DNA of 53,007 nucleotides from Nitrospirota bacterium (lineage in GTDB: Bacteria; Nitrospirota; Thermodesulfovibrionia; Thermodesulfovibrionales; SM23-35). This document shows positions 1 through 48,245 of the stretch, one piece after another. The stretch covers positions 1 through 53,007 of the forward strand of contig JACUUX010000016.1 of NCBI GenBank assembly GCA_014859105.1. The letters run 5' to 3'. How positions within the stretch are numbered: position 1 is the stretch's first letter; the number at the start of each line of letters is the position of its first letter. The notes under the pieces were generated by a model. That model saw nothing but the letters and a program-made list of their open reading frames with translations. It did not search any database and was not told the DNA's origin. A program made the translations under genes and the position numbers.

Positions 1-60
1 TTGCATGTGTTAGGCACGCCGCCAGCGTTCGTTCTGAGCCAGGATCAAACTCTCAATAAA
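1..60 (-). rRNA. rrs: 16S rRNA, 5' end only
   Basis: Read on the minus strand, the first 60 bases give the universal 16S start AGAGTTTGATCCTGGCTCAG followed by the helix-1/2 region ending in CCTAACACATGCAA. The gene runs leftward out of the window, so only the 5' terminal segment is present. The mature 5' end is placed near base 60 by alignment with the E. coli start and is approximate. The sequence is bacterial; this short, highly conserved piece does not resolve the phylum. Confidence 0.97.
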
Positions 61-83
61 AACTCTTAACGGGGCCTACTTTT

Positions 84-98
84 AGTTTTCAAAGATCA
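84..98 (-). promoter_or_regulatory. rRNA leader boxA-like antitermination site
   Basis: Minus-strand reading TGATCTTTGAAAACT closely matches the boxA element of rRNA leaders (the Bacillus form is TGTTCTTTGAAAACT), where the NusB/NusE antitermination complex binds. It lies about 25 nt upstream of the 16S start and downstream of the promoter, as expected. The assignment rests on the motif and its position only. Confidence 0.7.
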
Positions 99-281
99 TC
101 TTCTCCGCAAGCCCCGGGGGCCGAGCTTCTGAGGCTTCTTCTAAGTGGGTGCCTTGGCAGATGCTTAGGCTTCCCCTCCGCCTTGACCGGCTTTGGGGCG
201 TGCATCACTACATCTACACATCGGCTCCCTTACGAATTGTTGTTCCCTCAGCTCGCCTTCGACCCGAGGTATTGCAGAGAA

Positions 282-317
282 AAATAAAGGCTATACCAAG
301 TAGTATAGCCTTTATTT
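282..317 (-). terminator. Perfect hairpin in the rRNA leader, possible attenuator
   Basis: A perfect 15-bp stem (282-296 with 303-317) encloses a 6-nt loop. On the minus strand it is followed by TTTTTCTCT, so it has the form of an intrinsic terminator inside the rRNA leader, about 220 nt before 16S. A 10-nt segment transcribed earlier (338-329) is perfectly complementary to 303-294, which is the loop and the adjoining ends of the stem. It could therefore form a competing antiterminator or a pseudoknot. It could also be the terminator of an unrelated short transcript. The fold is seen in the sequence; its role is inferred. Confidence 0.55.
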
Positions 318-380
318 ATATCAAAAAAACTACTTGGTCTCTTTAAGCCATCTTCAAACCTTTTCGTACCATCTAATATT

Positions 381-408
381 AGTATAACATTTTTGAAAAG
401 ATAGTCAA
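381..408 (-). promoter_or_regulatory. rRNA operon promoter
   Basis: On the minus strand, TTGACT (-35, 408-403) is separated by 16 nt from TATACT (-10, 386-381), with a TGT just before the -10. It faces the 16S gene about 320 nt away and is surrounded by very AT-rich DNA (about 410-530) with no gene. This is a near-consensus housekeeping promoter, as expected for an rRNA operon. Confidence 0.7.
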
Positions 409-528
409 TAGAGAAATATAATTAAATATAGCTAAATATAGTTTGATTTTCCTTTATTTTTCCAAATTAAGCAATATTTCTCTAATTTTTAATAAATAAC
501 AAAATAATAATCGTAAAAATGTGGATTA

Positions 529-1152
529 TTATACTTCATATGAAAAGAAATTATAAGCTCTTTCATGCCCAATAGTTGATTCAGGACCATGCCCGGGAAG
601 TACTTTAATTTCTTCCGGCAAGGACATTAATCTTTTAAATGAATTTTTAAGCTTTTGTATATCCCCTCCATATAAATCAGTTCTTCCTACAGAGCCGGCA
701 AACAATGTATCACCTGTAATTAAAATTCCTTCTCCATAAAGGCATATTCCTCCGGGACTATGTCCGGGCGTATGAAGAATCTCAAATCTCAAATTTCCAA
801 TTTCTATTTTATTTCCTTCCGAAACCAATATGTCAGGCTCTGGTAAGGGATCAATTTCATAACCCCACAATAAAGCCTGTTTTTCAATGTTGCTATAAAG
901 ATCCAGATCCTCCCTGTGAATGACAATCTTGGCGTTTGTCTGCTCTTTTAAATCAGGTACAGCACCCACATGATCAAAATGAGCATGAGTGCAGACTATA
1001 AATTTTACTTTAAGATTACTTTCTTTAATCAAATCAAGAATTCTATCCGGTTCGTCCCCTGGATCAACCACTAAAGCTTCTTTTGTATCTTCATCTCCTA
1101 TAATAAAACAGTTGCTTTCAAGTGTTCCGACAATAAGTTTTTCGATAATCAT
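529..1152 (-). CDS. MBL-fold metallo-hydrolase (glyoxalase II-like)
   Basis: The protein is a cytoplasmic metallo-beta-lactamase-fold hydrolase of about 207 residues. The metal-binding THAHFDH motif is at about residues 55-61. The other conserved parts follow in order: VVDPG upstream, HTPGHSPGG, the metal-bridging aspartate in ITGDTLF, and LPGHGPES near the C-terminus. This set is typical of the compact glyoxalase-II-like enzymes that hydrolyse thioesters such as S-lactoylglutathione, but substrates vary widely in the family and none is proven here. The ATG at 1152 is preferred because CAGGA lies six bases upstream; a TTG 18 bp earlier is possible. The gene is monocistronic, between the rRNA leader and a response regulator. 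Confidence 0.9.
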   Translation of the reverse strand: MIIEKLIVGTLESNCFIIGDEDTKEALVVDPGDEPDRILDLIKESNLKVKFIVCTHAHFDHVGAVPDLKEQTNAKIVIHREDLDLYSNIEKQALLWGYEIDPLPEPDILVSEGNKIEIGNLRFEILHTPGHSPGGICLYGEGILITGDTLFAGSVGRTDLYGGDIQKLKNSFKRLMSLPEEIKVLPGHGPESTIGHERAYNFFSYEV

Positions 1153-13262: not shown

Positions 13263-13301
13263 GCCGGTGTGGTGGAATTGGCAGACGCGCCGGACTCAAA
13301 A
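13263..13301 (+). other. Orphan 5' half of tRNA-Leu, left attachment site
   Basis: The 39 bases are identical to the first 39 bases of the complete tRNA-Leu(CAA) at 27844, stopping exactly after the anticodon loop CTCAAAA (13295-13301). The sequence then diverges into element 1. It is preceded by a tRNA-type promoter, so this is taken to be the original chromosomal 5' half, now attL of element 1. Confidence 0.9.
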
Positions 13302-13369: not shown

Positions 13370-14362
13370 TCAATAGGGAAGTTTATCCACTGCCTCTTGA
13401 AGATGTTTTTGCGATAGGTGCGCATAAACCAGAGTTGTATTAAAAGAGCCATGACCTAGTAGTTCCTGGACCGTCCTGAGGTCGACCCCGGCCATAACTA
13501 ACTGACTTGCAAAAGTATGTCTGAGATCATGCGGCCTGATGTGGTCATACCCTGCTTTTTTTAAATAAAACTTTATCTGTCTTGCCATCTGCTCGCCTGA
13601 CACTCCTATAATCCTGCCAACGCCTCGATCGTATTCATTTAAAATTTCTCTTAGCTTTGAACAGATCGGAACCATGCGAGTTTTGTAGCCCTTTCCTTTT
13701 AAAATAATAAACTCATTTTTTATGTCAGCCCAGGTTAAATTATTAATTTCTCTCCGGCGAGCTCCGGTATAAATATAAAGAGCAAAGATAAGCCGGTACC
13801 GCTTATTGTCTCCTATCACTTCGAATGTTTTTTCGATTTGAGGGATAGAAAGAAATCGGGGAGGATCTTTGTGATATTTAATTTGCTTGAATCCCCTCAG
13901 GGGATTCTCTTTAAGATAATTCCACGCTGCGGCTACGGAGAAAGCAGCTTTGATTGTCCTTATCTCGATGTTTATTGTAGACGGCTTATTCTTTCGCTGC
14001 CGGCAATAATCAATATGTGTCTCCATGTCTCGCATTGTGATAGATGTTAATTGTCGCCTCTTTTCAACCGCCTGCATGAATTTATCGAGAGAGAGCTTAG
14101 CGCGTTCGTACGTTCCCCATGCCCTGTTTTTTTCCGCCCAAGATAAATATTCTTCGCAGAAATCTTCAACGGTTTTAGAGGGAATTTTATCCAGCAATAT
14201 AAGCTTACCGAGCAGCGCCTCTCGCTGTATCAACTTAAATCTTGAGCGAGCTTCGCGTTCATCTTTTGTTTTTAGAGATCTCCATGTTCCCCGGTTTATT
14301 TCTGAGTACCAGATTCCATTGGATCTCCTGAATAATCGCATTGAGAATTTAAGCATGTTCAT
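13370..14362 (-). CDS. int: Tyrosine recombinase, integrase of element 1
   Basis: A 330-residue phage-type integrase with an N-terminal arm-binding/SAM-like core-binding domain (about 1-150) and a C-terminal catalytic domain. The catalytic residues are R202 (TGAR), H278 and R281 (HDLRH), H304 (LLGHGS) and the nucleophile Y313 (VYAHL); the set is complete. It lies 70 bp from the left attachment site and reads toward it, as integrases usually do. Its ATG overlaps the stop of the excisionase-type gene upstream (ATGA), so the two are coupled. It presumably recombines at the anticodon-loop core CTCAAAA. Confidence 0.95.
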   Translation of the reverse strand: MNMLKFSMRLFRRSNGIWYSEINRGTWRSLKTKDEREARSRFKLIQREALLGKLILLDKIPSKTVEDFCEEYLSWAEKNRAWGTYERAKLSLDKFMQAVEKRRQLTSITMRDMETHIDYCRQRKNKPSTINIEIRTIKAAFSVAAAWNYLKENPLRGFKQIKYHKDPPRFLSIPQIEKTFEVIGDNKRYRLIFALYIYTGARRREINNLTWADIKNEFIILKGKGYKTRMVPICSKLREILNEYDRGVGRIIGVSGEQMARQIKFYLKKAGYDHIRPHDLRHTFASQLVMAGVDLRTVQELLGHGSFNTTLVYAHLSQKHLQEAVDKLPY

Positions 14363-15038: not shown

Positions 15039-15235
15039 TTTGTTACCTCCTGTTTTTGAATTTTTTTAATTCCCCTTAAAAAGGGGGCCTGCCGCCGGCG
15101 GCAGGCCCGAGTTAAAGGAGTACCCCCGATGAAGACTCCTGGCAGCTCTCCCTGCATCAGGCTGCCAAGACCACGTAAGACGGAGGTCTTTACTGGTCGT
15201 CGCCTACCAGCTTTCTTACGCGGCAGTCGACTCAT
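14960..15235 (-). CDS. Doubtful Arg/Lys-rich reading frame
   Basis: A 91-codon frame starting MSRLPRKKAGRRRPVKT. Its ATG overlaps the stop of the preceding gene (ATGA), which favours translation. However, its second half runs through a 24-bp perfect palindrome (15085-15108) and then overlaps the well-supported gene at 14580-15038 by 79 bp. It may be real only at its 5' part, or not at all. No family recognised. Confidence 0.3.
   Translation of the reverse strand: MSRLPRKKAGRRRPVKTSVLRGLGSLMQGELPGVFIGGTPLTRACRRRQAPFLRGIKKIQKQEVTKCWKTKSRASKKKSGPKKQKLTLQKR
15085..15108. repeat. 24-bp perfect GC-rich palindrome
   Basis: GGGCCTGCCGCC at 15085-15096 is followed directly by its exact inverse complement. 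On the minus strand it is followed by CCCTTTTTAAGG, so it could act as a terminator for the gene at 15232-15486. Its GC content contrasts strongly with the AT-rich surroundings. Confidence 0.5.
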
Positions 15236-15486
15236 TTTTGAAGACTTAAAAGATATTCGTACAATGAAGATCCGAATCTCTTTTGAATCTCAGTTTCAAG
15301 TTTTCGGTTTGCGATCTCTTTGTCTTTAATCGAAGTAATCTCGTATCGATTCCCGGCTTTGTCTTTTACGACCAAAATAGGCAGACGACCCCCAGCGTCC
15401 TTTTTGGCTTCGCCGTAAAGGTCGACAAGCTTCCGTGGTAGCCTGGTGTCCACGTGGAAACAAAACGGTTTATAAAGATCATTCAT
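15232..15486 (-). CDS. Small hypothetical protein of element 1
   Basis: An 84-residue protein (MNDLYKPFCFHVDTRLPRKL through LYEYLLSLQK) with mixed alpha/beta character and a charged C-terminal helix. AAGGAGA lies six bases before the ATG, supporting translation. It is the first gene after the putative origin region and precedes the integrase unit. No family recognised. Confidence 0.55.
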   Translation of the reverse strand: MNDLYKPFCFHVDTRLPRKLVDLYGEAKKDAGGRLPILVVKDKAGNRYEITSIKDKEIANRKLETEIQKRFGSSLYEYLLSLQK

Positions 15487-15520
15487 ACTATCTCCTTTTT
15501 ATTTTTATGTATATATCATA

Positions 15521-15954
15521 AAAAAGTGGTAGTAAGTGGTAGTACGACTACCACTTGTACTCCACCGTAGATTGGCTATTATCAACACTTACTACCACTA
15601 CTCCACTTTTTGATGTTTTTTCTATCTAGCATTTTAAGATTGAAACTGATCCACGACGGACCAGGGGATAATAAACATTCTAAAAAATATATAGTGGTGG
15701 TATATATCCCTATCGAGGTAAGGGAGGTAAGGGAGGCAAGTATAGCGTTTAACTTATTGAAATATATATATTTTCCCCTTACCTTAAAATCAAAAAAACC
15801 AAAATAAAAGGTAAGAGAAAAGGTAAGGGGCAAAATTAAGGTAAAAAAATCCTTACCTCCCTTACCTTTTTCATTACCTCTTTTTATATAAAAAAGTAAG
15901 GCGCAATGTGTTGATAGACTTAGCTTTGTGTTAATCCTTACCTCCCTTACCTTC
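15521..15954. other. Iteron-rich region, putative replication origin of element 1
   Basis: Two sets of short repeats flank an AT-rich core. GTGGTAGTA-type units occur at 15526-15544 (two direct) and in inverse orientation at about 15546-15555 and 15587-15606. GGTAAGG-type units occur at 15715-15736 (two direct), 15776-15785, 15809-15831 (two), 15838-15844, 15851-15878 (three inverse) and 15936-15954 (two inverse). The last pair lies inside the 3' end of the primase gene. Between them is AT-rich DNA (about 15745-15775). Iterons next to a primase/helicase gene are the usual layout of satellite and plasmid origins. Function is inferred; I see no convincing gene here. Confidence 0.5.
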
Positions 15955-18606
15955 AAAATTATGTATATGAGCTCTATAAAATTTAATAACCTTGATTGCT
16001 TTGTTTTTAAACCAAACACTGACAGTGTTTGCGGACTCTTTTGTTTCGATCAGCCCCCTGATTTTTAAAAGTCGATAGAGCGTATTTTTCGTGACAGGAA
16101 AGTGGGTACCTTCTTGTCTACAGAATCTCTGAACAACATTCCACAGCGCCGGCGGTATGATATATAAATAATCCTCATCGTAACATCCAATGAAGTCTCC
16201 TTTTAGCTGACCAAGAAGCGGAAGCTCGAACGGATTTTCTTTGTTCTCTAAAAATACTTTACCCTGGTTAATTAAAGTTTCAAGAATGTCAATAAACATC
16301 CGCACGGGGTTTTCTCGTTGAAATCGCTTTTCTTGGGAATTTGATAGGCCTGTGAAAATTTTCCAACCCGCAGTTTTGAAATCCACGCTCTTCTGATAAT
16401 CAATCACACGTTTTTCAACCGCCCAGGCTGTTACAACTTCAAGCGTAAAATATAAAAATGCGATCTGCTCGGAAAGCTTTCCGTGCATGTCTGCCGCGGA
16501 AGCTTTTTCTCTTAATTTAATGAACGTCTCGCAAAAGAGATCTTGAATCTTTGATAAATTTTTCTTTAAAAAAAGAATATATGACGTCATTGCATGTGGA
16601 AGGAGATATGCTTTTTTTTGTAATTCTGTGAGTTTTTTAAGTGAAATATCTTCTTTCGATATTTCTACAACTAGCATCCTGGCGAGCGTACTTTGCAGCG
16701 TTGGTAAATCCTCGCCGGTGGACAGAATCATCCCGCGCGGTTCATAGCAGCCTTTTTCAGTCGAATCAGAATTCAACCGACCGCGATCTGTTCGATTGCT
16801 TGCGCTTCTTATGATTCTTTGCAAGATGCTTTCTTTTAACTGCGCTTCCCTTTCCTGGATTGTTGGGTGGTAATCATCGATAACCATTAACATGTCTTTG
16901 AGCGTGAATGCCCGTCGCGCAAGTAAATTTGCAGTTGATTCGAAATTCGACAGCTGATGTATTGATCTAAAATTTCCGAAATGCGAAAGCAGCAATAAAG
17001 CTAAGGTAGTTTTTCGGGTGCCCGTCTCGCCATAGATATACCCGGAAAAATTTGGCTGCGGATCTAAAAAAGTTGTGAGCGGTGCCAAGTAAGCCAGAAA
17101 AAACAAAGGAAAAGTGACAGCTTTATTACCTAGATCAAGGAATGAAAGAGAAGCTTCTAAGGCTTCTTTTTCATTTCCAACGGCCAAAGGAAGCGAGTAC
17201 TTTTGAAGCTCGCGCGGCAGTTTTGTTGATACATTATCTTTTCCAATCGCGCCAACCGCGGTAAGAAAAATCCATTCGCCGTCTACTTCGCGCCAGCCGG
17301 TATGGCTGTAGACTGTCTCTGTCTGCGGTTGAGAGGATATTTGAATAAAATATCTTAAGAAGTCTTTGACCGTCTGCCCCGGTTCGATAACAGCATGGGT
17401 GCCCCATTGATGCAGCCAGCTCATTGCCGAAAAGGAGCTTGCGTTTACCTCGATGGTCGGTAGGTTTTTTCTATTTTCAATTTTACCTTTAAGGATATAT
17501 TTGCGTTTTTGTTCGATACCGTCATCTTCTATAATTTCCTTCTCGATGATAGCGTTGAAGTTCGCTAAACGGACAGGTACCTTGCCGTCTCTGGTCGTTT
17601 TCATTCGACGTGAGTAACCATCCTTGTCGACAAAATATTCTTTTGTATTTAATTTCTGATCTTCTACAACCTCCTGAGCGTTATCGATCAATTTTTGAAA
17701 ATCTTCCTGCGTCTTTTTTAGAACGATAAAAAAATCTGTTATATCTTTTTTCTCCGTGCTGCCATCGAGATCCGCCGGCCACGCGATGACTTTTATATTC
17801 TTGGCAGTGCCGCGAAGACTTTCAGCGACTTTTCGAGATCCTCGCTTTCCAGGAGCGTCATTATCGAACGCAAGAATCACGTTCATCTCTCTAAAAAGAG
17901 CGTTCCATTCTTCTTTCCAAGTCCCGGCTCCGGCGGTACCGCAAACCGCCGGAAACTCGAGCTGATTGAGAAGCAATGCCTTAAGTTCGCCTTCGCAGAT
18001 AATAATGTGCGGTAACTTTTTATCGATGATCTCGCCTGGATAGATGCAAGCTTTAGCACCTTTGCTTTGCTGGCCTTTGTGTTCTTTGAAAAGCCACTTT
18101 CCCGGTTCGATTTCAGCAGGAATCATAAAATGTTTATTTTGATACCCGATTAGATATTTTTTTATCGTCTCGATCGAGAGACCATATTTGATTTGTATCT
18201 TTTTTAGAGCATCGGGCGTTTTTAATAGTTGACCATGAATCGCTTTTATTTGTTCGAGATTGAGATACCGCGGGATTTTTGCTGTAGATTTTTTTTCAAT
18301 TTTCTTATTTGTCTTGGTAAAAAGATTGTGGTCAGTTATAACTCTTTCGCAAGCCTCGGGGAAGTTGAGATCGAAAAGTTTTTGAACAAACTGAATAGCG
18401 TTGCCATGCTTGTCACATCCGAAACAATTCCACAGACCAGTTTCTAAATTTATTGATAAAGAAGGCGTGGTATCTTCGTGAAAAACGCAGTTGACTTTAA
18501 CTTGTTTTTTTCCGTTCGTATTAAACCCGGGGACGTACTTTTGATAGAAATTTTCGAAATCAAGCGAGTTTAAAATTTTGTCAACGTCATATTTCTGATA
18601 ATGCAT
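15931..18606 (-). CDS. Primase-helicase: CHC2 zinc finger, Toprim and DUF927-type ATPase
   Basis: An 891-residue replication protein. The CHC2 zinc finger has C40, H43, C61 and C64. The Toprim domain follows with E205 (CEGE) and D248/D250 (AFDNDAPG). After a linker, a DUF927-like RecA/SF3-type ATPase carries Walker A GETGTRKT (526-533) and Walker B VIDD (about 575-578). A C-terminal winged-helix-like region (about 780-890) may bind DNA. This architecture can both prime and unwind DNA and is typical of autonomous replication modules of satellites and integrated plasmids. It lies directly beside the iteron cluster, whose last repeats encode its C-terminal EGKGGKD. The HTH gene at 18610 is immediately upstream in the same operon. 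Confidence 0.9.
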   Translation of the reverse strand: MHYQKYDVDKILNSLDFENFYQKYVPGFNTNGKKQVKVNCVFHEDTTPSLSINLETGLWNCFGCDKHGNAIQFVQKLFDLNFPEACERVITDHNLFTKTNKKIEKKSTAKIPRYLNLEQIKAIHGQLLKTPDALKKIQIKYGLSIETIKKYLIGYQNKHFMIPAEIEPGKWLFKEHKGQQSKGAKACIYPGEIIDKKLPHIIICEGELKALLLNQLEFPAVCGTAGAGTWKEEWNALFREMNVILAFDNDAPGKRGSRKVAESLRGTAKNIKVIAWPADLDGSTEKKDITDFFIVLKKTQEDFQKLIDNAQEVVEDQKLNTKEYFVDKDGYSRRMKTTRDGKVPVRLANFNAIIEKEIIEDDGIEQKRKYILKGKIENRKNLPTIEVNASSFSAMSWLHQWGTHAVIEPGQTVKDFLRYFIQISSQPQTETVYSHTGWREVDGEWIFLTAVGAIGKDNVSTKLPRELQKYSLPLAVGNEKEALEASLSFLDLGNKAVTFPLFFLAYLAPLTTFLDPQPNFSGYIYGETGTRKTTLALLLLSHFGNFRSIHQLSNFESTANLLARRAFTLKDMLMVIDDYHPTIQEREAQLKESILQRIIRSASNRTDRGRLNSDSTEKGCYEPRGMILSTGEDLPTLQSTLARMLVVEISKEDISLKKLTELQKKAYLLPHAMTSYILFLKKNLSKIQDLFCETFIKLREKASAADMHGKLSEQIAFLYFTLEVVTAWAVEKRVIDYQKSVDFKTAGWKIFTGLSNSQEKRFQRENPVRMFIDILETLINQGKVFLENKENPFELPLLGQLKGDFIGCYDEDYLYIIPPALWNVVQRFCRQEGTHFPVTKNTLYRLLKIRGLIETKESANTVSVWFKNKAIKVIKFYRAHIHNFEGKGGKD

Positions 18607-20298: not shown

Positions 20299-20925
20299 CT
20301 ATTTTAATCTTTCTCCGCAGACAGGGCATACATTTACAGAATCATCTTCGATCTCCGGACCTGCCCTGGGGAAAGATTGACCCCAATATTTTATTTCTAT
20401 CCTTTTGAGTTGATTGGTGAATTCGTTTCTGTCTGTATATTTATTTCTTCTCCTCAAACATCTTGCACGCTCTTTATAATACAATTCTAACCGACCTGAG
20501 GATTTCAGGCGTTTATACTTTTGCATACACAAATAATTATCCAAATTATATTTATTTGTGTAGATAAATTTACCAGTCGAGTTGTACATTATTTTTTTTA
20601 AAGAAGGATATTTTTTTAAATAACGTGATAGTTGCACTACGCTTTTATTCATGTATTCTGCAATCTCCTTCCTGCCAAAAACATAATCGAGTTTTAGTGT
20701 ACACAGGATATCCTGATCGGAAAAAACATACTTGCCATTTTTTTTGACCGGTTTTGTATAGATAACTTCATCCTCATCTGTTACGTCAACCGGAATTGTT
20801 ATTTGTTCCAGAAATCTTTTTGTTTGTTTGATTTGGGAAGTTTTATTTCCATAGCGGGAGAGACCCCAGGCCTCTGTAATCTTCTCCCAGCCTTTAATTT
20901 TTTTGTTTAATAAATGCCGGATCAC
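20299..20925 (-). CDS. Hypothetical protein with C-terminal zinc-ribbon-like motif
   Basis: A 208-residue basic protein. Residues about 60-115 (SDQDILCTLKLDYVFGRKEIAEYMNKSVVQLSRYLKKYPSLKKIM) look like a helix-turn-helix region. The end is VNVCPVCGERLK, a CxxC half zinc ribbon. Its ATG overlaps the stop of the RelE-type toxin (ATGA), so it is the third gene of that operon. A DNA-binding role is plausible, but no family was recognised. Confidence 0.6.
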   Translation of the reverse strand: MIRHLLNKKIKGWEKITEAWGLSRYGNKTSQIKQTKRFLEQITIPVDVTDEDEVIYTKPVKKNGKYVFSDQDILCTLKLDYVFGRKEIAEYMNKSVVQLSRYLKKYPSLKKIMYNSTGKFIYTNKYNLDNYLCMQKYKRLKSSGRLELYYKERARCLRRRNKYTDRNEFTNQLKRIEIKYWGQSFPRAGPEIEDDSVNVCPVCGERLK

Positions 20926-21179
20926 TTATAAATCTCTCGCCGGTGTCCAACTTTATGGACCGTGATAATCTGTTTGTCGTAATCAACATCATAGATAACT
21001 CGCCAGTCGCCGACTTTAAGTTTATAGAATCCAGCATAGTTGGCGCTAAGGAGTAAGGGCATAATGTTTTCAAAATTCTCTGATAACCAGGCGAGCTTAT
21101 CAGTAATACGGAGGGCAATGTTTTTATCGAGTCGCGAGAGGTCATCGAGAGCTTTAGGAAGGATGATAACTTGGTACAT
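20922..21179 (-). CDS. RelE/ParE-family toxin
   Basis: An 85-residue protein with the RelE fold pattern: MYQVIILPKALDDLSRLDKNIALRITDKLAWL, then GFYKLKVGDWRVIYDVDYDKQIITVHKVGHRREIY. The R in WRVIY and the C-terminal H/R-R-x-x-Y are those used by mRNA-cleaving RelE toxins. It lies two bases after the antitoxin gene. Such pairs stabilise mobile elements. A few members instead inhibit gyrase (ParE), so the target is not certain. Confidence 0.88.
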   Translation of the reverse strand: MYQVIILPKALDDLSRLDKNIALRITDKLAWLSENFENIMPLLLSANYAGFYKLKVGDWRVIYDVDYDKQIITVHKVGHRREIYK

Positions 21180-22217: not shown

Positions 22218-22607
22218 TTACAGATTTTTTTTGTAAATAGTATTTATGATTTGAAGGCAAAGCTTATCGAGGCATTCATAGCAACAGGTAAGTACCAGAC
22301 AGTCAATGCCTGGCGACGGCGGGCTATCCGGGGGACATATCCAGATGTATAAATCGTTCAATGAGAAATCAGTTTTTTTTATGACAAACTTTTCGGCTAA
22401 ACTTACAACATCGCTCTGAAGACTTATTCCTAGAAAAGAGAACATCGAAAATTTTAAACCGAGCATCTGTATTTTTGCGATCCCGATATTGACGTGATCA
22501 AGATTAATATTTTTTTGGCAATAACCACACGGAATAAAAGGAGCCGATTCTTGAAGTCTTCTTCTTGCGTAATCCTCTTCTCTCTCTAACCGGGATTCTG
22601 ACATCAC
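22218..22607 (-). CDS. Hypothetical protein downstream of the tape measure
   Basis: A 129-residue protein with two Cys pairs (CGYCQKN near 27 and CCYECLDKLC near 110) that may bind zinc. Its start overlaps the tape-measure stop (ATGA), so it is translationally coupled. In phages this position often encodes a distal tail or tail-tip protein, but I see no resemblance to one. Confidence 0.6.
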   Translation of the reverse strand: MMSESRLEREEDYARRRLQESAPFIPCGYCQKNINLDHVNIGIAKIQMLGLKFSMFSFLGISLQSDVVSLAEKFVIKKTDFSLNDLYIWICPPDSPPSPGIDCLVLTCCYECLDKLCLQIINTIYKKNL

Positions 22608-25600
22608 AGTAAATCTAACCCCCTGAGTTGTAATTTTCTATTCAGAGCGGGGATAAGTACATCGTCAAGCCATCTGTTTGTAGTTTCAGGATCGAAACTC
22701 GGAGGCGGGTTAATATTGAGGTCCCATTCTAATTTTTTTGTAACTGTTACTTCGGTAGTTGGTATGCCTGCCGCAGCCATTGCCAGTCCGCTTAAATCCG
22801 GGACCAGACCGCTCACGATATCACGGATTCCGCCTGCACTGCCGGCGGTACCTCTGACTTTGCTTTTTTCTTCCCCAAGATATTCCTGTTCATCCCTCTC
22901 CATCTCCTCGAGGACCTTCTTTTTCTTCTCCTTGTAAATCTCGTCAAGCAGTGCCATGGCCTCATAATACTCTTTTGTCCTGCCGAGCTCATCGGCATAT
23001 TTTTCTTCGAGTTTTTTCTTTTCCTGCTCGTACCACATCTCGATCTCTCCGAGCCTGTCGCCCCGCAGCTGCATGAGCTGCATCCTGAGGCTGTCGATGT
23101 AATCCTGAAGAGACTGCAAAAGACTTTTCACGTGATTGATGTAATCTGTGACTCTCTGTGCCCACTCAAAGACACTCGTGCCGACCATTTCAACCATCTT
23201 GCGTCCGAATATCTGCGCATTCCAGAATGTGTCATAGCTGGTCATTGTGGTTTTTCTCATGAATTCGTCAACCTGGTACTGGACGTCCGTAACGGTCGTA
23301 TTAACCGCTTCCTTCCATTCGCCGAAATATTGTTTTACGTCATCCCACGTGTCGGTCAGAATTCCCTTGACGGCAGCCTGAAGTTTTGCTCTCCGGTTGT
23401 CTACATAGTCGATGTAGGCATTAAGCGTCTCGGTCGTTATTGCAAAGACTGCCTTCGCTTCTTCTTTCGTTGCCTCTATGGTTTTTTCAGCCGACTCTTT
23501 TGTTACCTTTACCTTTGTCTCTGCGATCTCCTGTTCGGATTTTATGATGGCTTTTTGATATTCATTCTGAAGTTTTTCCTTTGCGGCAAGCGCTTCCTCG
23601 TATGCGATAATGTCTTCTTCCGTAAGCTGTTCTTTCTTTGCGTTCGCCTCTGCTATTTTTCTGACGGCTTCCTCTGCAATGCGGATTTCTTCTCCGTATG
23701 CTTTTCTGATCCGCTGAAGCTTGCGGTTGAGGTACTCCTCCTCTCTCATCTCCCCTCGCTGAACCGCAGCCTGCTCGACTGCATCCTCGAGGTCAAGCTG
23801 TGATTTCAGTGTGCCGAGCCTGAGCTCCTGAAGTTTTTTCCAGCTGTCAAAGTCTTTCTGATATTCCTGCTTAAGCCCGGATGTGAGCTCCTGGCGGATA
23901 CTCAGTTGCTCCTGCGCAGAGCGGAGTTTGATTTGTTTAATCTCCTCCTCGATGGCTTTGATCTTGTCCAGGTTCGCCTCCGGCTGTTTCCTCAGTTCCT
24001 CAAGCTCAAGCTGTTTGAGGTAGATTATGCGGTTGACATAATCTTCCGTGCGCCTCTCACGGAATGTAAGATATTCCTGGAGCGAGATCTTCCCTTCTTT
24101 GTATTTTTGCTCCTCAAGGGCGATCTCGTAATCTATTGTGGCTTTGAGTGTGTTCGCCTCGATCTCCATGATCTTCATCCACTGCTCTGAACCGAATTTT
24201 ACAGTTGCGATAAGGTCTTCGTAGGTTTTACCGAGCGTTTCCATAGACGAGGCCGCTCTTTTAAAAGCCTTGTCTTGCTCATCCCAGACGATAACGCCTT
24301 CCTTGATTAAGCGATGAAATTCCTGGATTTTGTCATCCAGGGTTCCTTGTGTTATACCCAGGGATCGATATTTGTCTTCCAGTTCTGCAGCCGTTACCGC
24401 CATTCTTTCTTGTACCTGCGCGGTTCTTTCGAGTGTCTTTTTATACTCTTCTGTTTCCTTCCGTCCCCAGATTAGGTAATAAATCAGACCCGCTAACGCA
24501 ACGCCGGCAACGGCAGCAGCACCTAAAATGCCAACTCTGAGGGCAAAGCTTAAAAGTCCTGATGCGCCGGCAGATGCTGTAAGTGATGTCTTAAGACCTA
24601 ATACAGATGCGGTAACAGCTTTTATACCGGTAATCAGTCCCGGAATTATTGTTGACCAGGCGGCAAAACCTTTGATGATTGCAGCGGTAACAAACCCCAG
24701 TCCCCCAAGTGCAACGCTCAGTCCCCCGACAACCAGAAGAAGTACTCCCAAGCCCCCTACGATACCTAAAACAACTGTACCGGCAGGGCCGAGAGCTTCC
24801 TTGAATTCTGTTATTTTTGTGACGACAGAAGCTATTGATTTAGCAGCTTTCGAAAGTGCAGACAGAAAAGGTTCACCGAATGAGATGAGCAGGCCGCTTA
24901 AAGCGCTTTTAAGAATCGTAACCCCGCCCCACAAGTCTTTAAGCATCCTTTCGGAAATCGTCTCTGCGATGCCTTGGGAGTCTTTTAGTTTTTGCGTGAA
25001 CTCTTCGAGAGCTCCCGAACCCTCGGCAAGCATCGCAGCCATTGCAGGGCCGGCACGGTCGCCGAATATGCTCATTATGATAGCCGTCCTCTCGGCCTCT
25101 CCGCCGACGTTCTCAAAAGCCTTTTCGAACTGCGCTATGATATTTGAGAGACCGACAAACCTGCCTTCCTGGTCCGTGACGGTAATGCCGAACTCTTCAA
25201 GTTTTTTCTTTCCGTCACCCACAGGCTTGATTAATGACGTGATGATTTTTCTCAAAGAGGTACCGGCCATTGTGGCTTTAATGCCGCCCATTGCCATCAT
25301 GCCGATCGCAGCGGATGTCTCTTCAAATTCAACACCGGCGGATTTAGCAATAGGACCAACGTATTTCATGGCCTGGCCAAGCTCGACTAAATTAGTATTT
25401 GCGCTTGTGAATGCCTTGACGAGAACATCGTTTGCACGATTCAGCTCCTCGACTCTCATGCCGTAACCGGTCAGGATGTTGGATGTGATATCCGCCGCAG
25501 TGCCTAAGTCAAGGTTTGCTGCAGCTGCAAGCTGAAGCACTGACGGCATGGCGCTGATTATCTCGTTTGTCTTGAAGCCGGCCATCGCCAGGAAGCTCAT

Positions 25601-25942
25601 TCCCTCCGCCGCTTCTTCCGCTGTGAACTTTGTGGTACGTCCAAGGTCCTTAGCAGTGTCCGATAATTTCTTGAATTCTTCTTCGGTTGCACCGGTAAGA
25701 GCATGAACTTTTGACATTGCTCTTTCAAAATCGGCGGCAAACTTGACCGGCACAGCAAGCGAGGCGGTAAGGGCAGCGCCCATTGCTCCGACCTTTGTGC
25801 CGAAGTCCATCATCTCCTGCGAGGTCTTGCGGATCTTCTCCGCTGAATCCTGCAGTTTCTCCATCCCGCCCCTGAGGCGGTTGATGGACTCGCTTGCGAG
25901 GTCCTTCGCTTTCAGGATTAATTCAACGATCTCGGTCGCCAT
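22604..25942 (-). CDS. Phage tail tape-measure protein, TP901 family
   Basis: A 1112-residue protein. The N-terminal coiled region is followed by the TP901 core (about 60-330): FERAMSKVHALTGATEEEFK, LGRTTKFTAEEAAEGMSFLAMAGF and MKYVGPIAKSAGVEFEETSAAIGMMA. A glycine-rich hydrophobic region (about 385-490) follows, then long coiled coil (about 500-870, many Glu/Lys/Ala) and a C-terminal ERDEQEYLGEEKS region. It sets tail length in siphophages and myophages. The reading frame is intact, which argues for use. It sits between two small upstream genes (six-base gap) and one overlapping downstream gene. No other tail, head or packaging gene accompanies it. Confidence 0.93.
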   Translation of the reverse strand: MATEIVELILKAKDLASESINRLRGGMEKLQDSAEKIRKTSQEMMDFGTKVGAMGAALTASLAVPVKFAADFERAMSKVHALTGATEEEFKKLSDTAKDLGRTTKFTAEEAAEGMSFLAMAGFKTNEIISAMPSVLQLAAAANLDLGTAADITSNILTGYGMRVEELNRANDVLVKAFTSANTNLVELGQAMKYVGPIAKSAGVEFEETSAAIGMMAMGGIKATMAGTSLRKIITSLIKPVGDGKKKLEEFGITVTDQEGRFVGLSNIIAQFEKAFENVGGEAERTAIIMSIFGDRAGPAMAAMLAEGSGALEEFTQKLKDSQGIAETISERMLKDLWGGVTILKSALSGLLISFGEPFLSALSKAAKSIASVVTKITEFKEALGPAGTVVLGIVGGLGVLLLVVGGLSVALGGLGFVTAAIIKGFAAWSTIIPGLITGIKAVTASVLGLKTSLTASAGASGLLSFALRVGILGAAAVAGVALAGLIYYLIWGRKETEEYKKTLERTAQVQERMAVTAAELEDKYRSLGITQGTLDDKIQEFHRLIKEGVIVWDEQDKAFKRAASSMETLGKTYEDLIATVKFGSEQWMKIMEIEANTLKATIDYEIALEEQKYKEGKISLQEYLTFRERRTEDYVNRIIYLKQLELEELRKQPEANLDKIKAIEEEIKQIKLRSAQEQLSIRQELTSGLKQEYQKDFDSWKKLQELRLGTLKSQLDLEDAVEQAAVQRGEMREEEYLNRKLQRIRKAYGEEIRIAEEAVRKIAEANAKKEQLTEEDIIAYEEALAAKEKLQNEYQKAIIKSEQEIAETKVKVTKESAEKTIEATKEEAKAVFAITTETLNAYIDYVDNRRAKLQAAVKGILTDTWDDVKQYFGEWKEAVNTTVTDVQYQVDEFMRKTTMTSYDTFWNAQIFGRKMVEMVGTSVFEWAQRVTDYINHVKSLLQSLQDYIDSLRMQLMQLRGDRLGEIEMWYEQEKKKLEEKYADELGRTKEYYEAMALLDEIYKEKKKKVLEEMERDEQEYLGEEKSKVRGTAGSAGGIRDIVSGLVPDLSGLAMAAAGIPTTEVTVTKKLEWDLNINPPPSFDPETTNRWLDDVLIPALNRKLQLRGLDLL

Positions 25943-27843: not shown

Positions 27844-27930
27844 GCCGGTGTGGTGGAATTGGCAGACGCGCCGGACTCAAAATCCGGTGGGGGCAACTCC
27901 GTGCGGGTCCGACTCCCGCCACCGGCACCA
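27844..27930 (+). tRNA. tRNA-Leu (CAA anticodon), complete
   Basis: An 87-nt class II tRNA. The acceptor stem GCCGGTG pairs with CACCGGC, the discriminator is A and CCA is encoded. The anticodon stem is CCGGA/TCCGG with loop CTCAAAA (anticodon CAA, reading UUG), and the variable arm is long (TGGGGGCAACTCCGT). The T-loop reads TCCGACT, so position 55 is C instead of the nearly universal U. The 5' 39 bases are repeated at 13263 and the 3' 57 bases at 51634. The gene thus appears to be assembled from the attachment ends of two elements. Confidence 0.95.
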
Positions 27931-28019: not shown

Positions 28020-29147
28020 TTAATGGTTTATGGTGCTTATCCATTGCTCTGAAAGAGTGTCATTTTTTGTTATTGTAACCAAATTGTAACCATTTGTAAC
28101 TGTCTGTAACTTTTCTTTTGTGTTCTGGTGCATCATTGAGACTTTTTCGGATGCAGTCCTTAAATCGGATTCATTGACTATGTTGTACCGGTCAAAGATA
28201 GCCCTTGTCTTATGGCCTGAAATCTTCATAGCGACTATTTCAGGGATGCCAGCCCTTACCATATTCCTTACAGCGGTTCTTCTCAGGTCATGGAATATAC
28301 GGCCTTCAAGCTTTGCCTTCTTACAGGCATTATCCCATGCAGCCCTTATATCCTTCCCGATCCTGTTACCTTTGAAGAAAAACACATAAGGACACTCAGG
28401 ATATTCTTTATCCCTGATAGCCTTCTGTTTCAGTACCGCTTCGTATAGCTCCCCTGTGAGATAAATAATCCTTGCCTCATTGTTCTTTGTAGTCCCGGCC
28501 TCAAGAGTAACCTTGCCTGAAATCAAATCAACCTTACCCCATGTGAGAGACAGTATCTCTCCCTTTCTCATGCCTGTGTGGTATCCCATAGTAAGCACTG
28601 GTTTGAGATATTCAGGCAATGCCTCTTTAAGTCTCAGGTATTCGTTATGTTCAAAGTATCTGGTTCTTGCAGGAGCTTCTTTAAGTTTCGGGATATAAGG
28701 AATATGCATAACCTTCTTAGGAGTTTGTTTAGCTCCTAAAGAGAACATCCTCTGCAATGCTGAAAGTTCTCGGTTGATAGTTCCGTTTGCAGCCCCTTCT
28801 TTCTGTCTTTCGACAATGTAATACTGGATAAGGTTTGTAGTGATATTAACAGCCTTGATACCTAAAAAATAAGCCTTCAGATGCTTCAGACTACATTCTG
28901 TAAGCCTGTCAATGCTTTTCCTGCCATTCATTTTGTAATCGGTTATCAAGTCTTCTGCAAGCTCATTATAAAGTATCTTTTCGACTCTCAGGCCGGGGAA
29001 TCGGCCTTCTGCTATTTCGGCTTCTCTGATATGGAGTTTTTTTAGTGCAAGCTTTTCGTTCTTTGTGTGAGTGCTTTCAAAATAGGGTTTGCCATTACGG
29101 TAGTATTTAATCCAGAAAACATTGCCTCTCTTATAAAGCGACCCCAT
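28020..29147 (-). CDS. int: Tyrosine recombinase, integrase of element 2
   Basis: A 375-residue phage-type integrase with an N-terminal [18 protein letters not shown] arm-binding segment, a core-binding domain and a catalytic domain. The catalytic residues are R194 (TGMRKGE), H286 and R289 (HDLRR), H312 (SGHKT) and Y321 (DRYNI). It is unrelated in close detail to the element 1 integrase, yet uses the same anticodon-loop core. Its 3' end is 90 bp from the tRNA. The last 30 codons contain GTAACCA-type repeats that recur near the right end. The start overlaps the XRE gene stop by one base. Confidence 0.95.
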
Positions 29148-37009: not shown

Positions 37010-38161
37010 CTATTCCAAACAGTTGCAATACAAACCGTTTATCGGCAGATTCAGGCTTTTCCAGATTTTGATATCCTCCTTGCACAGCGATATTTTTGCT
37101 TTTTTGTCATGCTTCATTATCGCATCAATGATTGTCTTAAACATCGCTAAACGATATTCGTCCGGATATCTTAGCTTAGTTCCATCACTAATCAGTCCGG
37201 AATTGATCTTTAAAAGGGGAGAATCAGGGAAGCGAGAACTAATATGTGAAACAAGTCCTTTCGATGGCCGATATTCACCGATAGTAATGCGTTCGGGTTT
37301 AACGTAGACAAATATTTTCTCAACAAGATCAACATAATCCTTTTTCCATGTTGAATAAAGGATAACAGGATCTATCCTTAAGCGTATTTCATAGCCGGCA
37401 TCCTGCAGCTTCTTTGCTGCCATTAATCTCGCCTCTGGAGAAGCAGTTCTATGTTCAAGTTGCTGATAAACCTTATCTGTGTTAACACTGAAAGACATTA
37501 TCGACCTACCCCCATGATCTAAATTCAATAAAGAATCAATGTTGTCACTTTTCGTAAGAAAAAGCAATTTTGTCTTGTAAGTTTCCTTTGCAGCAAACGG
37601 TATAAGTTCTTCTGCAAACCCTGTAATGTCCTCAACTGCCAAGGGGTCACATAATTCGCCAAGGTTCAAAACCCTGAGCATATCAGGGATATCTGACCGA
37701 TCAAAACTTATAATCTCCTTAAACATTTTTTCATAATTAACAAAATGCGTTGATATAGGCATGTTGCGGAAGGTGAGATAGAGGTAACAGTATTCACACC
37801 AGAAATTGCAGTTGTTATAAGCTGTTAATTTATAAAACTTTGCACATCTGCCGATTGGGTGCTGAAACTGTTCAACAAAAGGACTCGTACGATTTCTTAA
37901 TAGAAGAATTCCCCTTTCGGCTTGAAGTTTCTTAATTCCCCTTTTACCATCGAACGATGGAACTTTATCGAACCACTTTATTGGTAAATCTGCTTTCTTC
38001 GCTATTTTTTTAGACGTAAATTCATTACACTTTCCACTAATGGCCCATAGTTCAGAAACGAGGGGTTGTCTTTGTTCTTTATTCTCATAAGTGGCTACCT
38101 GTTCACCAATCTCCATATTGAATATCATTTTATTTGCCTTATAAAGATAATTTTTTGGCAT
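37010..38161 (-). CDS. SPL-like radical SAM protein
   Basis: A 383-residue protein with the radical SAM cluster motif CxxxCxxC at C118, C122 and C125 (NNCNFWCEYCYLY). The flanking sequence (KFYKLTAYNNC, ELCDPLAVEDITGF, RSIMSFSVNTDKVYQQLEHRTASPEARLMA, YEIRLRIDPVI) is typical of spore photoproduct lyase-like proteins. Those enzymes use a 4Fe-4S cluster and SAM to make a 5'-deoxyadenosyl radical. DNA repair is known for true SplB, but island-borne relatives have no known role. Its ATG overlaps the TcmP stop by one base (TAATG). It is the last gene of the five-gene operon. Confidence 0.85.
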   Translation of the reverse strand: MPKNYLYKANKMIFNMEIGEQVATYENKEQRQPLVSELWAISGKCNEFTSKKIAKKADLPIKWFDKVPSFDGKRGIKKLQAERGILLLRNRTSPFVEQFQHPIGRCAKFYKLTAYNNCNFWCEYCYLYLTFRNMPISTHFVNYEKMFKEIISFDRSDIPDMLRVLNLGELCDPLAVEDITGFAEELIPFAAKETYKTKLLFLTKSDNIDSLLNLDHGGRSIMSFSVNTDKVYQQLEHRTASPEARLMAAKKLQDAGYEIRLRIDPVILYSTWKKDYVDLVEKIFVYVKPERITIGEYRPSKGLVSHISSRFPDSPLLKINSGLISDGTKLRYPDEYRLAMFKTIIDAIMKHDKKAKISLCKEDIKIWKSLNLPINGLYCNCLE

Positions 38162-39018
38162 TATTTGCCTTTTTCATATTTCTTAAAAATATCTTTGACA
38201 ATATTATTTGCAACATCTTTTTGAGACGCAAAATACAAATAATAAAGAGGGCCATTCTTTACATTTGTCATCAGGATAGGTTCTGGTACATCATTAAAGC
38301 CACTCTCTATCAATCTTTTACGGAATTCTTTGGCAAGAGTCCGATAATTTTCGATTCTAATGTATTCTGTTTCTCCGAAAAGAGTTTTTTGCTCTTTATA
38401 TAAAATGTCTTTCCAACTTTCATCACCCCAAAAATCATTCATTCTTTTAATATCTTCCGGGTCGGCTTTATCGAAATCAGCAAAAAGTACATTTCTGTTC
38501 ATGTCCATTATTGGAAAATTGATAAAGATATCTATGGTTGCCAATTCAGCAGCTTTCTTTATTGTTTCCCATTTAAGATGTAACCCATATGGGTCAAGAA
38601 TGCATAATGCTCTTTTAAATGTGTCATAGCCAAGCATAGGAAAGATATCTTTAACAAGAACTTCATTGCAATCGCCATGATAAGGATGGATATTAGAGTT
38701 CTCTCTTGCAAGTTCAATAAAAACATCCGCTCTTTCTTCAGCAAGATCAATGAAAAAATATTCTGTAAAAGGAGGCTTGACCTCCAGAGCATTTAACGGC
38801 GAGCCAGGGACCATTTCCCCAGTTCTCCTGCTGATATGCTTGCCGGCACCCGCAAATGCATCAATATATACATACCCCTTGCACCATGACTGATTTTTCA
38901 TAATGCTCGTATATGCACAGGCGTATTTCTTGATTATCTCAAGCTTTATCTCGGACCAGAAACCGATTTGATCAAGTTTCATATTAACTCTATGTATATA
39001 TTTGCCATGTGTACGCAT
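38161..39018 (-). CDS. tcmP: Three-Cys-motif partner protein TcmP, Rossmann-fold
   Basis: A 285-residue protein. It has the hallmarks of a class I methyltransferase: YIDAFAGAGKH (motif I, about 52-61), FFIDLAEERADVF (about 88-100), HGDCNEV (about 114) and LDPYGLHLKW in the place of the DPPY motif (about 141-150). Proteins of this type are named TcmP because they occur beside a partner with a three-Cys (radical SAM-like) motif, exactly as here. The substrate is unknown. It overlaps both neighbours by one base (TAATG). An internal ATG 12 codons in is an alternative start. Confidence 0.85.
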   Translation of the reverse strand: MRTHGKYIHRVNMKLDQIGFWSEIKLEIIKKYACAYTSIMKNQSWCKGYVYIDAFAGAGKHISRRTGEMVPGSPLNALEVKPPFTEYFFIDLAEERADVFIELARENSNIHPYHGDCNEVLVKDIFPMLGYDTFKRALCILDPYGLHLKWETIKKAAELATIDIFINFPIMDMNRNVLFADFDKADPEDIKRMNDFWGDESWKDILYKEQKTLFGETEYIRIENYRTLAKEFRKRLIESGFNDVPEPILMTNVKNGPLYYLYFASQKDVANNIVKDIFKKYEKGK

Positions 39019-41447: not shown

Positions 41448-44400
41448 GCTTTTATTCCTCTCGTGTTTCCCTCCACAATCTCAATCTCCTCCGGTGTGAG
41501 GCCGTAGAGGTCATAGACCATTTTGTCGATTTCCCGTTCAAGGGCAGATGTGTCGGCGTTGGGGTCTTTTTGCTTGGCGGCAAGGATTTGGTCAACGAGT
41601 GAGATTAAGGGCTGCTGTTCTTTTCTGGAAATATTAGGAATCGGAATATTATCAAAGTGATTTCCAAACCACTTAATTCCATCTTTTCCCCATATTACTG
41701 AACCCAGTTTGATATAGAATAAAATGATTTTTGAGTTAAGGATGGCAGCAAGATAGTTTATGTCCTCAGATACAGCAAAGGAAGAACTATCAACTGTGAA
41801 TTCACCATTTAAACTTATTGCAAAAGCATTTTGATTCGATAGCCTTGTCCAAACTAATTTCGGTTTGAAAAATTTATCATAATAACTACATTTTCTCAGC
41901 TCATACCATTTTTTTAATCCATGCTTTGCTTCGTAAACTTCTTCAAGTAGTTTTTTATGCTTTTTAAGATAATTATATACCCCAGGATATGCCTCAATTT
42001 TAATGCCAGAATACATATAAATAAGATATTCTTTAGGGGAAAGTATTTTGTACCGTTTTATATTAGCACCTCTCAAAACAGGCCTAATTATTTCGATGCT
42101 TTTAGGGTCTTCTTTTATTATTTCGTTTCTTAGGGATTCTGAAATGATAAACACATCATTTAGCCCCGTGGTTATTCCTCTGTTAATTGATATCCCTTCC
42201 CATTTTGAAAATGGAACTCCTCTTTTTCCAATTTTAAATTTTAGATTTTGAATATTTCCCTCTTCAAAATTCCATTGATTATCACGGTAAAATTCACGTT
42301 TTAATTTTTTACCATCCTTAATTAAATCACCTATATATTCACCTTTTGATTCGTATATCAGAATCGGACTATTTGAAAAATGTGTGTTCTGAATAAGTGC
42401 AACAAGACTGCCAACATTAGCACTTTCGAATACATTTATCTCATTGAAATTAATTAGTTGTAAAAGATTCTTCTGAGACATGTATTTTCTTAACCCAATA
42501 CCATAATTAGTGAAACAAAAACGATTAGATGATATATAGCATAAGCAGCCATACTGCCTTAATAGGTTTATTCCTTTTTCATAAAACAAACAATAAACAT
42601 CTGCATCTTTTGAAAAAGTTTCATAAAGTTGCTTACTAAGAATAGCTGCAGTTTCACTCGGTAGCTTTGCAATTGGAATATACGGCGGATTACCTATCAC
42701 AATATCAAATCCCCCCTCACCCTTACTCTCTCCAGCAAGGAGCGAGGGATTTTTGATGCCGAACATCCACTCTGGGTCAAACCACGAGGATGACTCATCA
42801 GTAAATGGCTTCCATTGAGATAGCTTCAAAGTCTGAGTTTCAAGGGTCTTTTTATGCGTCGCCATTTCCTTGACCGCATACTCGTACATTTTTCCTTGTA
42901 TTTCTTGGAATTCAGATTCTATGCTTCTCTTTTCAGTCCCATAGCTTGTGAAATAGGCGTCTCTCAAATCTTTTAGTCTGTTTATATCATCACGCGCCTC
43001 AAACATTTCCATTTGGGAAAATCGAGCCATCTGAGGCAAACCTATCAGGCTGTTTGCTGCAACGAATTTGAATTCGAGATTTGGCAGTGGAACAATGCCT
43101 CTGTTGGGTTTAGTGTCATCAACCTTTTCGTCAACGATGAGAGACAGGAAAAATCTGAGCTTTGAAATCTCTACAGCAATGGGCTGAATATCAACACCAT
43201 AAATGGAGCTCTGTATAATACCGAGCTTGTGAATGTAGTCCCAGTTTTCTCTTTTAAGTTTTGCCTCAACCTCATGCCTGAGTAGTTTATTGTCAATTCT
43301 CGACAGTTTTCTTGAAAGCCACTTCTTTGATTGTGGGTCTATCTTCTGGAGTATCAGCAACATCTTATGGAGTATTCCCATAGGGAATGCACCGCTTCCA
43401 CAGGCAGGGTCAATGATTTTTACTCTATCGAGGGCATCTATAATTGCATCTTTTTGGGATTCTGATAAGTCAACATCGTAATCGCCGTAGGAGAGGAGTC
43501 TGGAGAGTTTCTGGTCTATTTCCTGTTTGTCATTCTCCGGCTTGCTTGCCTGCCGAACACCTGGAGGGACCTGGGAATCCAGAGATGAAGGACTGGATTC
43601 CGCATCAAGTGCGGAATGACGGCTGACTGCTCCGTCATGCTGAACTTGATTAAGCATCTCTTTAGATTCCGAAACAAGTTCGGAATGACGCAATGAATAT
43701 AACTGTGTCTTCAAATATTGTTTCAAACTCTCGTCAACCATGTATTCAACAATCGGTCTTGGTGTGTAGTAACTGCCTGTGGATTTTCTTGCTGTTTCAC
43801 CTGTTTCAGGGTTTATCTCGGCAAGGAGGTTTTCAAATATCCTGCCCAACATCTCCGGGTCAACAGAAATATCAATATCGATTGTCGTACTTTCATCTAT
43901 AGTGAAGTTGTATAATTCAAAAATTTTGAAAAGGTCTAAAAACCATTCATCAGGTATTCTTAATGTATTGATATATTTCGATATGCCTGACTCATAGTAA
44001 ATTTCATAATAATCATGCAAGTGATGCTCGAACAAACCACCATTCAGAAAAGGAATATCATTCCAGAAGCCATGTTTCACACTTTTATCCCGATTTTCGA
44101 CCGGTGTATTTAAGACCCGAAAAAATAAAGGCTCTAAAAGGCTATGGTAATAATCCGGATACTGAATTATTGCATCTGAAGATAAAAGCACATTTGGTAT
44201 CAGAGGAACACCTGCGTCTGATTTCTTCTTTTTCAGAAACCAGCAGAACATGAGCCTGCCGATAAGTCTTACAGCAAATTCTTTTCTTAAAATATCTGAT
44301 GGCTTTGGATATTTAAGCTGTCCTGCCTCCACAATCTTCCTTGAACCTATTTTCCTCTCGCCACCAACAAGCTCTGTAAACTTCTTTGCAATCTCTGTAT

Positions 44401-44959: not shown

Positions 44960-44963
44960 CTAT

Positions 44964-48218: not shown

Positions 48219-48245
48219 ACAGTAAGGTATCAGGATTCTCAACAA

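Follow-up and report, generated by a model that had tools for sequence, protein, structure and literature searches.

The question raised by this locus is whether the short repeats beside a primase-helicase gene in a Nitrospirota genome are the replication origin of the element that carries the gene and, if so, which of the repeats belong to it. The stretch that was analyzed (the window, 53,007 bp) is a whole contig of a 3.16-Mb genome, and it contains an element of 14.6 kb (element 1) that is bounded by a 39-bp tRNA-Leu duplication. Element 1 encodes a tyrosine integrase, the primase-helicase, which is referred to here as the initiator, a ParE-like toxin and a tape-measure protein.

The GGTAAGG unit is present in eight exact copies between positions 15521 and 15954, compared with 17 in the whole window, and 1000 dinucleotide shuffles of this segment give an expectation of 0.16 copies and a maximum of 3. 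The exact copies start at 15717, 15726 and 15822 on the plus strand and at 15777, 15851, 15860, 15936 and 15945 on the minus strand. If one mismatch to AGGTAAGG is allowed, there are 11 copies in the segment, eight of them exact, and the exact doublet GGTAAGGGAGGTAAGG occurs three times in the host genome, always within these same limits. The window has no second GGTAAGG cluster; elsewhere in the genome, only the exact doublet was sought. Immediately 3' of the initiator gene, the copies are arranged as two sets of opposite orientation, accompanied by an AT-rich part (Table 1), and the coding sequence itself ends in the last doublet, GGT AAG GGA GGT AAG GAT TAA, which is translated as GKGGKD followed by the stop. 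The original prediction had described repeats beside the primase-helicase gene, with GGTAAGG units in direct and inverted orientation about an AT-rich core and the last pair inside the primase coding sequence, and the excess over shuffles, the arrangement and the gene end all agree with it. Its picture of two repeat families around one AT-rich core is only half right: GGTAAGG flanks an AT-rich part of its own, but the GTGGTAGT copies form a separate palindromic block (block 1).

Table 1. Features of the window that bear on the candidate origin and on the two neighboring elements.
Feature	Position	Strand	Remarks
Left attachment repeat of element 1	13263..13301	+	Repeats the 5' part of tRNA-Leu (27844-27882) exactly over 39 bp, in direct orientation
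Tyrosine integrase of element 1	13370..14362	-	Pfam PF00589, E 6.1e-26
GTGGTAGT block (block 1)	15524..15606		10-bp perfect inverted repeat with 3-nt spacer (15534-15543/15547-15556) and two further half sites
Box GATATATACCACCACTATATATTTTTT	15682..15708	-	Counterpart of the C-run box of homologues (ACATATACCCC...TTTTT) by the last iterons
Iteron pair E	15716..15732	+	Two AGGTAAGG, spacing 9 bp; orientation opposite to A
AT-rich part, putative duplex-unwinding region	15740..15819		20-25% G+C in 40-bp windows
Extra iteron copy within AT-rich part	15777..15784	-	
Iteron pair D	15809..15828	+	15821-15828, 15809-15816 (1 mismatch); faces C; spacing 12
Iteron triple C	15851..15879	-	15872-15879 (1 mismatch), 15860-15867, 15851-15858; spacings 12 and 9
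Iteron B, single inverted copy	15894..15901	+	AAGTAAGG, 1 mismatch
Iteron pair A	15936..15952	-	Two AGGTAAGG, 9 bp apart; inside the last initiator codons (GKGGKD)
Initiator gene, 891 aa	15931..18606	-	Pfam, motifs, AF2 models, fold matches
C-terminal winged-helix domain, residues 759-891, predicted to bind iterons	15934..16332	-	R845 in helix H3, W865 in wing strand
Spore-photoproduct-lyase-like protein, element 2	37010-38161		
PDC-M41A, element 2	38161-39018		
nSTAND3 protein matching PDC-S73, element 2	39018-41447		
Type IIG-like methylase, element 2	41444-44959		
PLD/SNF2 helicase, element 2	44964-48245		

The initiator has a CHC2 zinc motif (C40..H43..C..C; Pfam E 1.8e-16), Toprim motifs (E205 and D248xD), a DUF927 AAA+ helicase with Walker A at residues 526-533 and Walker B at 573-578 (Pfam E 1.7e-7) and a C-terminal winged helix at residues about 759-882. 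Its score against PF06048 (DUF927) is 31.7 bits with a curated cut-off of 22.6, which places it in the DUF927/Cch helicase family. An AlphaFold2 model of residues 324-891, made with a 19-sequence alignment, has a pLDDT of 87.2 and matches SaPIbov1 Rep over its full length (8tch_A; VIA-align Z 24.6, rmsd 7.0, 456 aligned, model 1..563; Foldseek E 5.4e-15). SCCmec Cch (5dgk) is also matched over its full length (Z 23.9, 461 aligned), and the next-best VIA-align chains are MCMs, with Z 14.1 and below. When the C-terminal domain is modeled alone (AF2 pLDDT 85.7), its VIA matches are TcpK (Z 10.5), residues 446-556 of SaPIbov1 Rep (Z 10.2), 2ipq (Z 8.2) and Cch (Z 6.5), and the likeness to the Rep and TcpK domains bears out the winged-helix-like C-terminus that had been expected. 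Searches of the PDB with the alignment profiles A4 and A5 found neither Rep nor Cch and gave no meaningful match. Judged from the models, the kinship of the initiator with Rep and Cch is one of fold, together with the Pfam DUF927 match, and does not extend to a PDB profile match.

Several published systems resemble this arrangement. As described in PMC7581432, SaPI origins are directly downstream of the rep/helicase gene and are recognized by its C-terminal domain, and Cch, which has a DUF927 domain, is a relative of SaPIbov1 Rep. PICI origins are described as having two iteron sets on either side of an AT-rich region, and they begin right after the 3' end of the initiator gene (PMC6092414). 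DUF927 domains had been predicted to form a helicase family that occurs in fusion with primases (PMC5862659). The window shares with the SaPI/PICI Rep-ori systems (SaPIbov1 Rep, PDB 8TCH) the helicase and C-terminal winged-helix fold over the full length, as well as a candidate origin directly 3' of the gene with opposed iteron sets and an AT-rich part (PMC7581432, PMC6092414). It differs from them in the DnaG-type CHC2-Toprim primase that is fused to its initiator, in its Nitrospirota host and in the missing profile match to PDB Rep. SCCmec Cch (PDB 5DGK) has the DUF927 helicase and the fold in common with the window initiator; no iteron origin is given for it in the portions of the literature cited here. 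Cch2 belongs to another helicase family (D5-type), and its C-terminal domain is published to bind repeats just downstream of its gene, the origin repeat being TACCACTTA (PMC7581432). TcpK, which acts at the pCW3 oriT (PDB 5VFY, 5VFX) and is the best fold match of the C-terminal domain, is described as binding tandem 9-nt boxes with its wing in the major groove, and the boxes are 12 bp apart in the sequence printed in PMC6137059; the window iterons are 9-12 bp apart and are only predicted to be bound. Unlike the window initiator, TcpK is a stand-alone dimer that functions in conjugation and has no helicase fusion.

The P4 system is also similar in that crr comes directly after the alpha primase-helicase gene and contains type 1 repeats in both direct and inverted orientation; the P4 repeat spacings are 9 (crr) and 10 and 11 (ori). 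However, the annotated P4 ori is 4.5 kb from crr, and the type 1 iteron letters are GGTGAACA as opposed to GGTAAGG in the window. P4 alpha is of another primase type and another helicase family than the window initiator. The original prediction of a locus that is P4- or PICI-like in layout and not in sequence holds for the layout. As far as the models can be trusted, the module is SaPI/PICI-like in layout and fold, has diverged in sequence and carries a fused DnaG-type primase.

Homologues of the initiator were found in the same order, the same phylum, Desulfobacterota, Ectothiorhodospiraceae, Clostridia and IMG/VR; they are present in genomes of the host's own family and order, and the nearest ones with named records are Nitrospirota MAGs. 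The single window protein recovered no relative when used as a query of viral contigs; alignment A1 recovered relatives, A3 four more that are distant and A2 none beyond known contigs, and the L067 protein as a query recovered no contig other than its own. Among close relatives, the helicase and C-terminus are about 42-53% identical. The N-termini vary, i.e., CHC2 in the window and L045, DUF3854 in L048 and L052, and RepB-primase with PriCT-1 in L083. Most homologues have repeats 3' of the stop, with letters that differ from one homologue to the next, namely, GGTTACAG (L046), AGCGGTA (L045), AAGGTAAT (L048), GTAACTGG (L052), GGTAACAG (L062), CAGTTAC (L063), CAGTAAC (L064), CCGTGACA (L066), CAGTAAGG (L083) and TTGACC (L067), and their position and orientation are partly kept between loci.

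The repeats were compared by spacing, with a test for exact 7-mers (at least two G or C) that recur at lags 9-12 in the interval from -40 to +450 around the stop. The core set consists of 20 homologues and leaves aside L050 (truncated C-terminus), L060 (protein identical to L059), the fragments L055, L057 and L058, and re-fetched duplicates; seven homologues with about 28-32% identity were tallied separately. Repeats spaced 9-12 bp apart 3' of the gene were found at shuffle p<=0.05 in 15 of the 20 core homologues, and 13 of the 20 lie above the 95th percentile of a control set of 537 windows drawn from the same loci. A repeat pair is present at lag 9 in 13 of the 20 core loci, at lag 10 in eight, at lag 11 in four and at lag 12 in 12, and the corresponding counts at lags 13, 14, 15, 16 and 17 are 0, 0, 2, 0 and 0. 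The control fractions with a pair at lags 9-12 are 0.02-0.06, and in a second control, taken from 25 other loci that are mostly DnaG-type primase matches, four of 311 windows score at least 5. As a known case, the P4 genome has its peaks in this statistic at the annotated crr (lag 9) and ori (lags 10 and 11). An absence of repeats beside close primase homologues had been named as evidence against an origin, and this is not what was found.

Five core homologues fail the spacing test (L047, L049, L051, L053 and L086). The sequence after the L086 stop is only about 230 bp, and L047 and L053 have some surplus of a repeated 7-mer (p 0.036 and 0.020). Three of the seven distant homologues pass (L067, L056 and L077). 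Raw pair counts, which carry no shuffle p, are none at lags 9-12 for the gut record L100, two at lag 10 for the gut record L101 and five lag-9 matches for the canonical DUF927 gene L092. At 1500-2100, L008 has a remnant that consists of the C-terminal domain only (48% identity) with adjoining GAGGTAAGG repeats; integrase-like frames adjoin this remnant as well, and the helicase and primase parts are lost. Such a remnant could be a passive or interfering origin.

We predict, with a probability of about 0.86, that the GGTAAGG cluster at about 15716-15952 is the replication origin of the 14.6-kb element and serves the element's own initiator, and a functional SaPI/PICI-type origin with a fused DnaG-type primase is its most likely form as judged from sequence. 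The initiator, whose gene ends inside the cluster, would recognize the GGTAAGG origin, presumably by way of its C-terminal winged helix, for which the fold and the 9-12-bp spacing of the iterons are the grounds. By analogy with SaPI and Cch2 work, the opposed iteron sets would load two facing DUF927 AAA+ (Cch/SaPI Rep-like) hexamers; the AT-rich part at about 15740-15819 would then melt, and the fused CHC2-Toprim domain may be the first to prime the opened strands, as its domain content suggests. The published SaPI, PICI and DUF927 systems make this a mechanism of a known kind. The gene end and the origin probably move as a single unit, and so the iteron sequence and the DNA-binding domain could drift together. 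If this is correct, the SaPI/PICI-type combination of a self-loading helicase and its origin would extend to Nitrospirota, to other environmental phyla and to DnaG-primase-fused initiators, and an origin with no known iteron might be found by seeking 7-mers repeated at lags 9-12, 3' of a helicase gene. The choice of an origin by its initiator would also become directly testable by swaps of single residues and iteron bases.

The other repeat, GTGGTAGT, is confined within the window to 15521-15954, where it has four copies (a mean of 0.014 and no more than 1 in shuffles). The palindrome of block 1 spans 23 bp, and the block starts 38 bp upstream of an 84-aa ORF; a search of 174 other genomes of the order recovered no relative of this ORF. 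One possible explanation is a composite origin to which each of the two blocks contributes a functional iteron family, like the type 1 and type 2 repeats of P4. The block 1 copies likewise have a 10-bp tandem spacing and inverted orientation, the P4 ori has a second set of tandem decamers, and the Cch2 repeat TACCACTTA, as given in PMC7581432, is near ACTACCACTT in letters. However, the likeness to the Cch2 and P4 repeats is short and may be due to chance, block 1 was not seen among the homologue 3' regions that were read, and its 10-bp palindrome is absent from all 100 other genomes searched. Because of this absence, two iteron families are not supported, and the original prediction that GTGGTAGTA is the second family of the same origin found no support; we consider a composite origin unlikely. 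Block 1 was also rejected as an iteron family of the core origin since it was not seen beside the homologues that were read and could pass just as readily for a palindrome of the operator type or a hairpin resembling a terminator. We take it to be an operator or terminator-like element, or possibly an attenuator, outside the core origin. On its minus strand, block 1 (15524-15556) reads ACTACCACTTACTACCACTT; the printed origin repeat of SCCmec Cch2, TACCACTTAAT, and the type 2 repeat of P4, CCACTTAAAG, bear a short likeness to it that may be due to chance.

A former origin, now inactive in a decaying prophage, would be consistent with the tape-measure gene that element 1 retains and with the lack of head or packaging families among the ORFs scanned. 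Against this, the initiator reading frame runs uninterrupted through 891 aa and has its CHC2, Toprim and Walker motifs, eight of the 11 iteron copies are exact, and the attachment repeat is exact over 39 bp. An inactive origin seems improbable.

It could also be imagined that the repeats are not an origin and serve in transcriptional control, as operators or an attenuator for the genes downstream of the initiator. The perfect palindrome of block 1 upstream of the 84-aa ORF would suit such a role, and as a minus-strand RNA, the block folds into a long hairpin that ends in a U run (MFE -34.9, z -4.34). The RNA of the GGTAAGG cluster (block 2) also folds better than shuffles (z -5.36) because inverted repeats must fold. 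However, transcriptional control suits block 1 better than block 2, which overlaps the initiator coding end, has its copies spaced 9-12 bp apart and recurs 3' of homologous initiators with differing next genes. No sigma-70-like promoter was found on the minus strand of 15200-16100 in a scan limited to the sigma-70 type; its single plus strand match is under the shuffle mean, and an Rfam scan of the same interval gave no match. We regard transcriptional control as very unlikely for the cluster. A transfer origin (oriT) or accessory-protein site, which comes to mind because TcpK (Z 10.5) and a C-terminal domain of TraI type (2ipq, Z 8.2) are among the folds closest to the winged-helix domain, is barely credible, given that the winged-helix domain is fused to a primase-helicase and not to a relaxase and that no relaxase family was found among the subset of window ORFs scanned against Pfam.

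In the comparisons that follow, the iteron seeds were picked and oriented by the analyst (18 loci for the position maps, 11 for the layout permutation and 16 for the last-codon count). Oriented by its gene-end pair, the window has the layout ++ - +++ -- + --, which resembles L062 to L064, L066 and L045; it has eight positions in common with L063, eight with L045 and seven with L066 (200 permutations, p 0.005 each). A common layout at permutation p<=0.05 is found in only 10 of 36 locus pairs, and L083, L046 and L052 are mostly unmatched. In 10 of 16 loci, iteron copies lie within the final 12 codons, and since 9 bp equal three codons, peptide repeats such as VTSVT and GKGGKD appear at the gene end. 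A C-run box comes after the last iterons in many loci; its pattern, which was defined after the boxes had been viewed, matches in 12 of 21 loci, including L051, where it has no iteron context, over a background of 0.078 per 520 bp.

Two columns of the C-terminal domain display a pattern that follows the iteron letters. At column 865, in the wing strand, five loci with GTAAG or GTAAT iterons have W or F, and eleven loci with C at the corresponding iteron base have K or R. At column 845, in helix H3, the four GTAAG loci have R and the GTAAT locus has K. Of the 120 columns compared over 16 loci, column 865 comes first (p 0.037 in a label permutation that takes the maximum over columns). The iteron base classes were set by eye, and L047 and L088 (ambiguous orientation) as well as L049, L051 and L086 (no clear iteron) were omitted. 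After one clade is collapsed, which leaves 12 loci, the p value rises to 0.25 and the idea of a recognition code is weakened. That W865 and R845 track one iteron base is suggestive only, a lead and not a result.

One might tentatively propose, though we find it doubtful, that the whole family has one register whatever its letters: iterons spaced by 9-12 bp, an order that is conserved in part (++ / - / +++ / --- / AT-rich / -- / C-run box), the first copies often in the last codons of the initiator, and one wing and one helix residue that set an iteron base (W865 and R845 with GTAAG, a wing K/R with GTNAC). Origin specificity could then be readable from the protein sequence. A literature search by title and the start of the abstract, with subscription papers on SaPI origins outside it, found no treatment of a 9-12-bp register across such origins, and it is not claimed to be unpublished.

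Some other features of the contig deserve mention. The ParE-like toxin gene of element 1 is at 20922-21179 (E 1.2e-13), and no partner antitoxin was identified for it. The tape-measure protein (1112 aa, 22604-25942) is encoded within the same 14.6 kb. The tRNA-Leu gene itself occupies 27844-27930, and a second element (element 2, 27876-51690) adjoins element 1 there, between 57-bp copies of the tRNA-Leu 3' part (at 27876 and 51634). Its integrase gene is at 28020-29147, and tandem GTAACC copies that are 10-11 bp apart (28076-28110) lie inside the end of this gene and are possibly integrase arm sites. The cargo of element 2 at 37010-48245 resembles a defence cluster (Table 1). Element 2 has a photoproduct-lyase-like gene, and a gene that by eye resembles one for a radical-SAM protein of the photoproduct-lyase type lies directly after the homologue L051 (3800-4800), which lacks 3' iterons. 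Finally, the interval 52050-52850 contains tandem repeats of about 90-100 bp (GGCTCTA...), which by eye are like the coding repeats of a HEAT-type protein.
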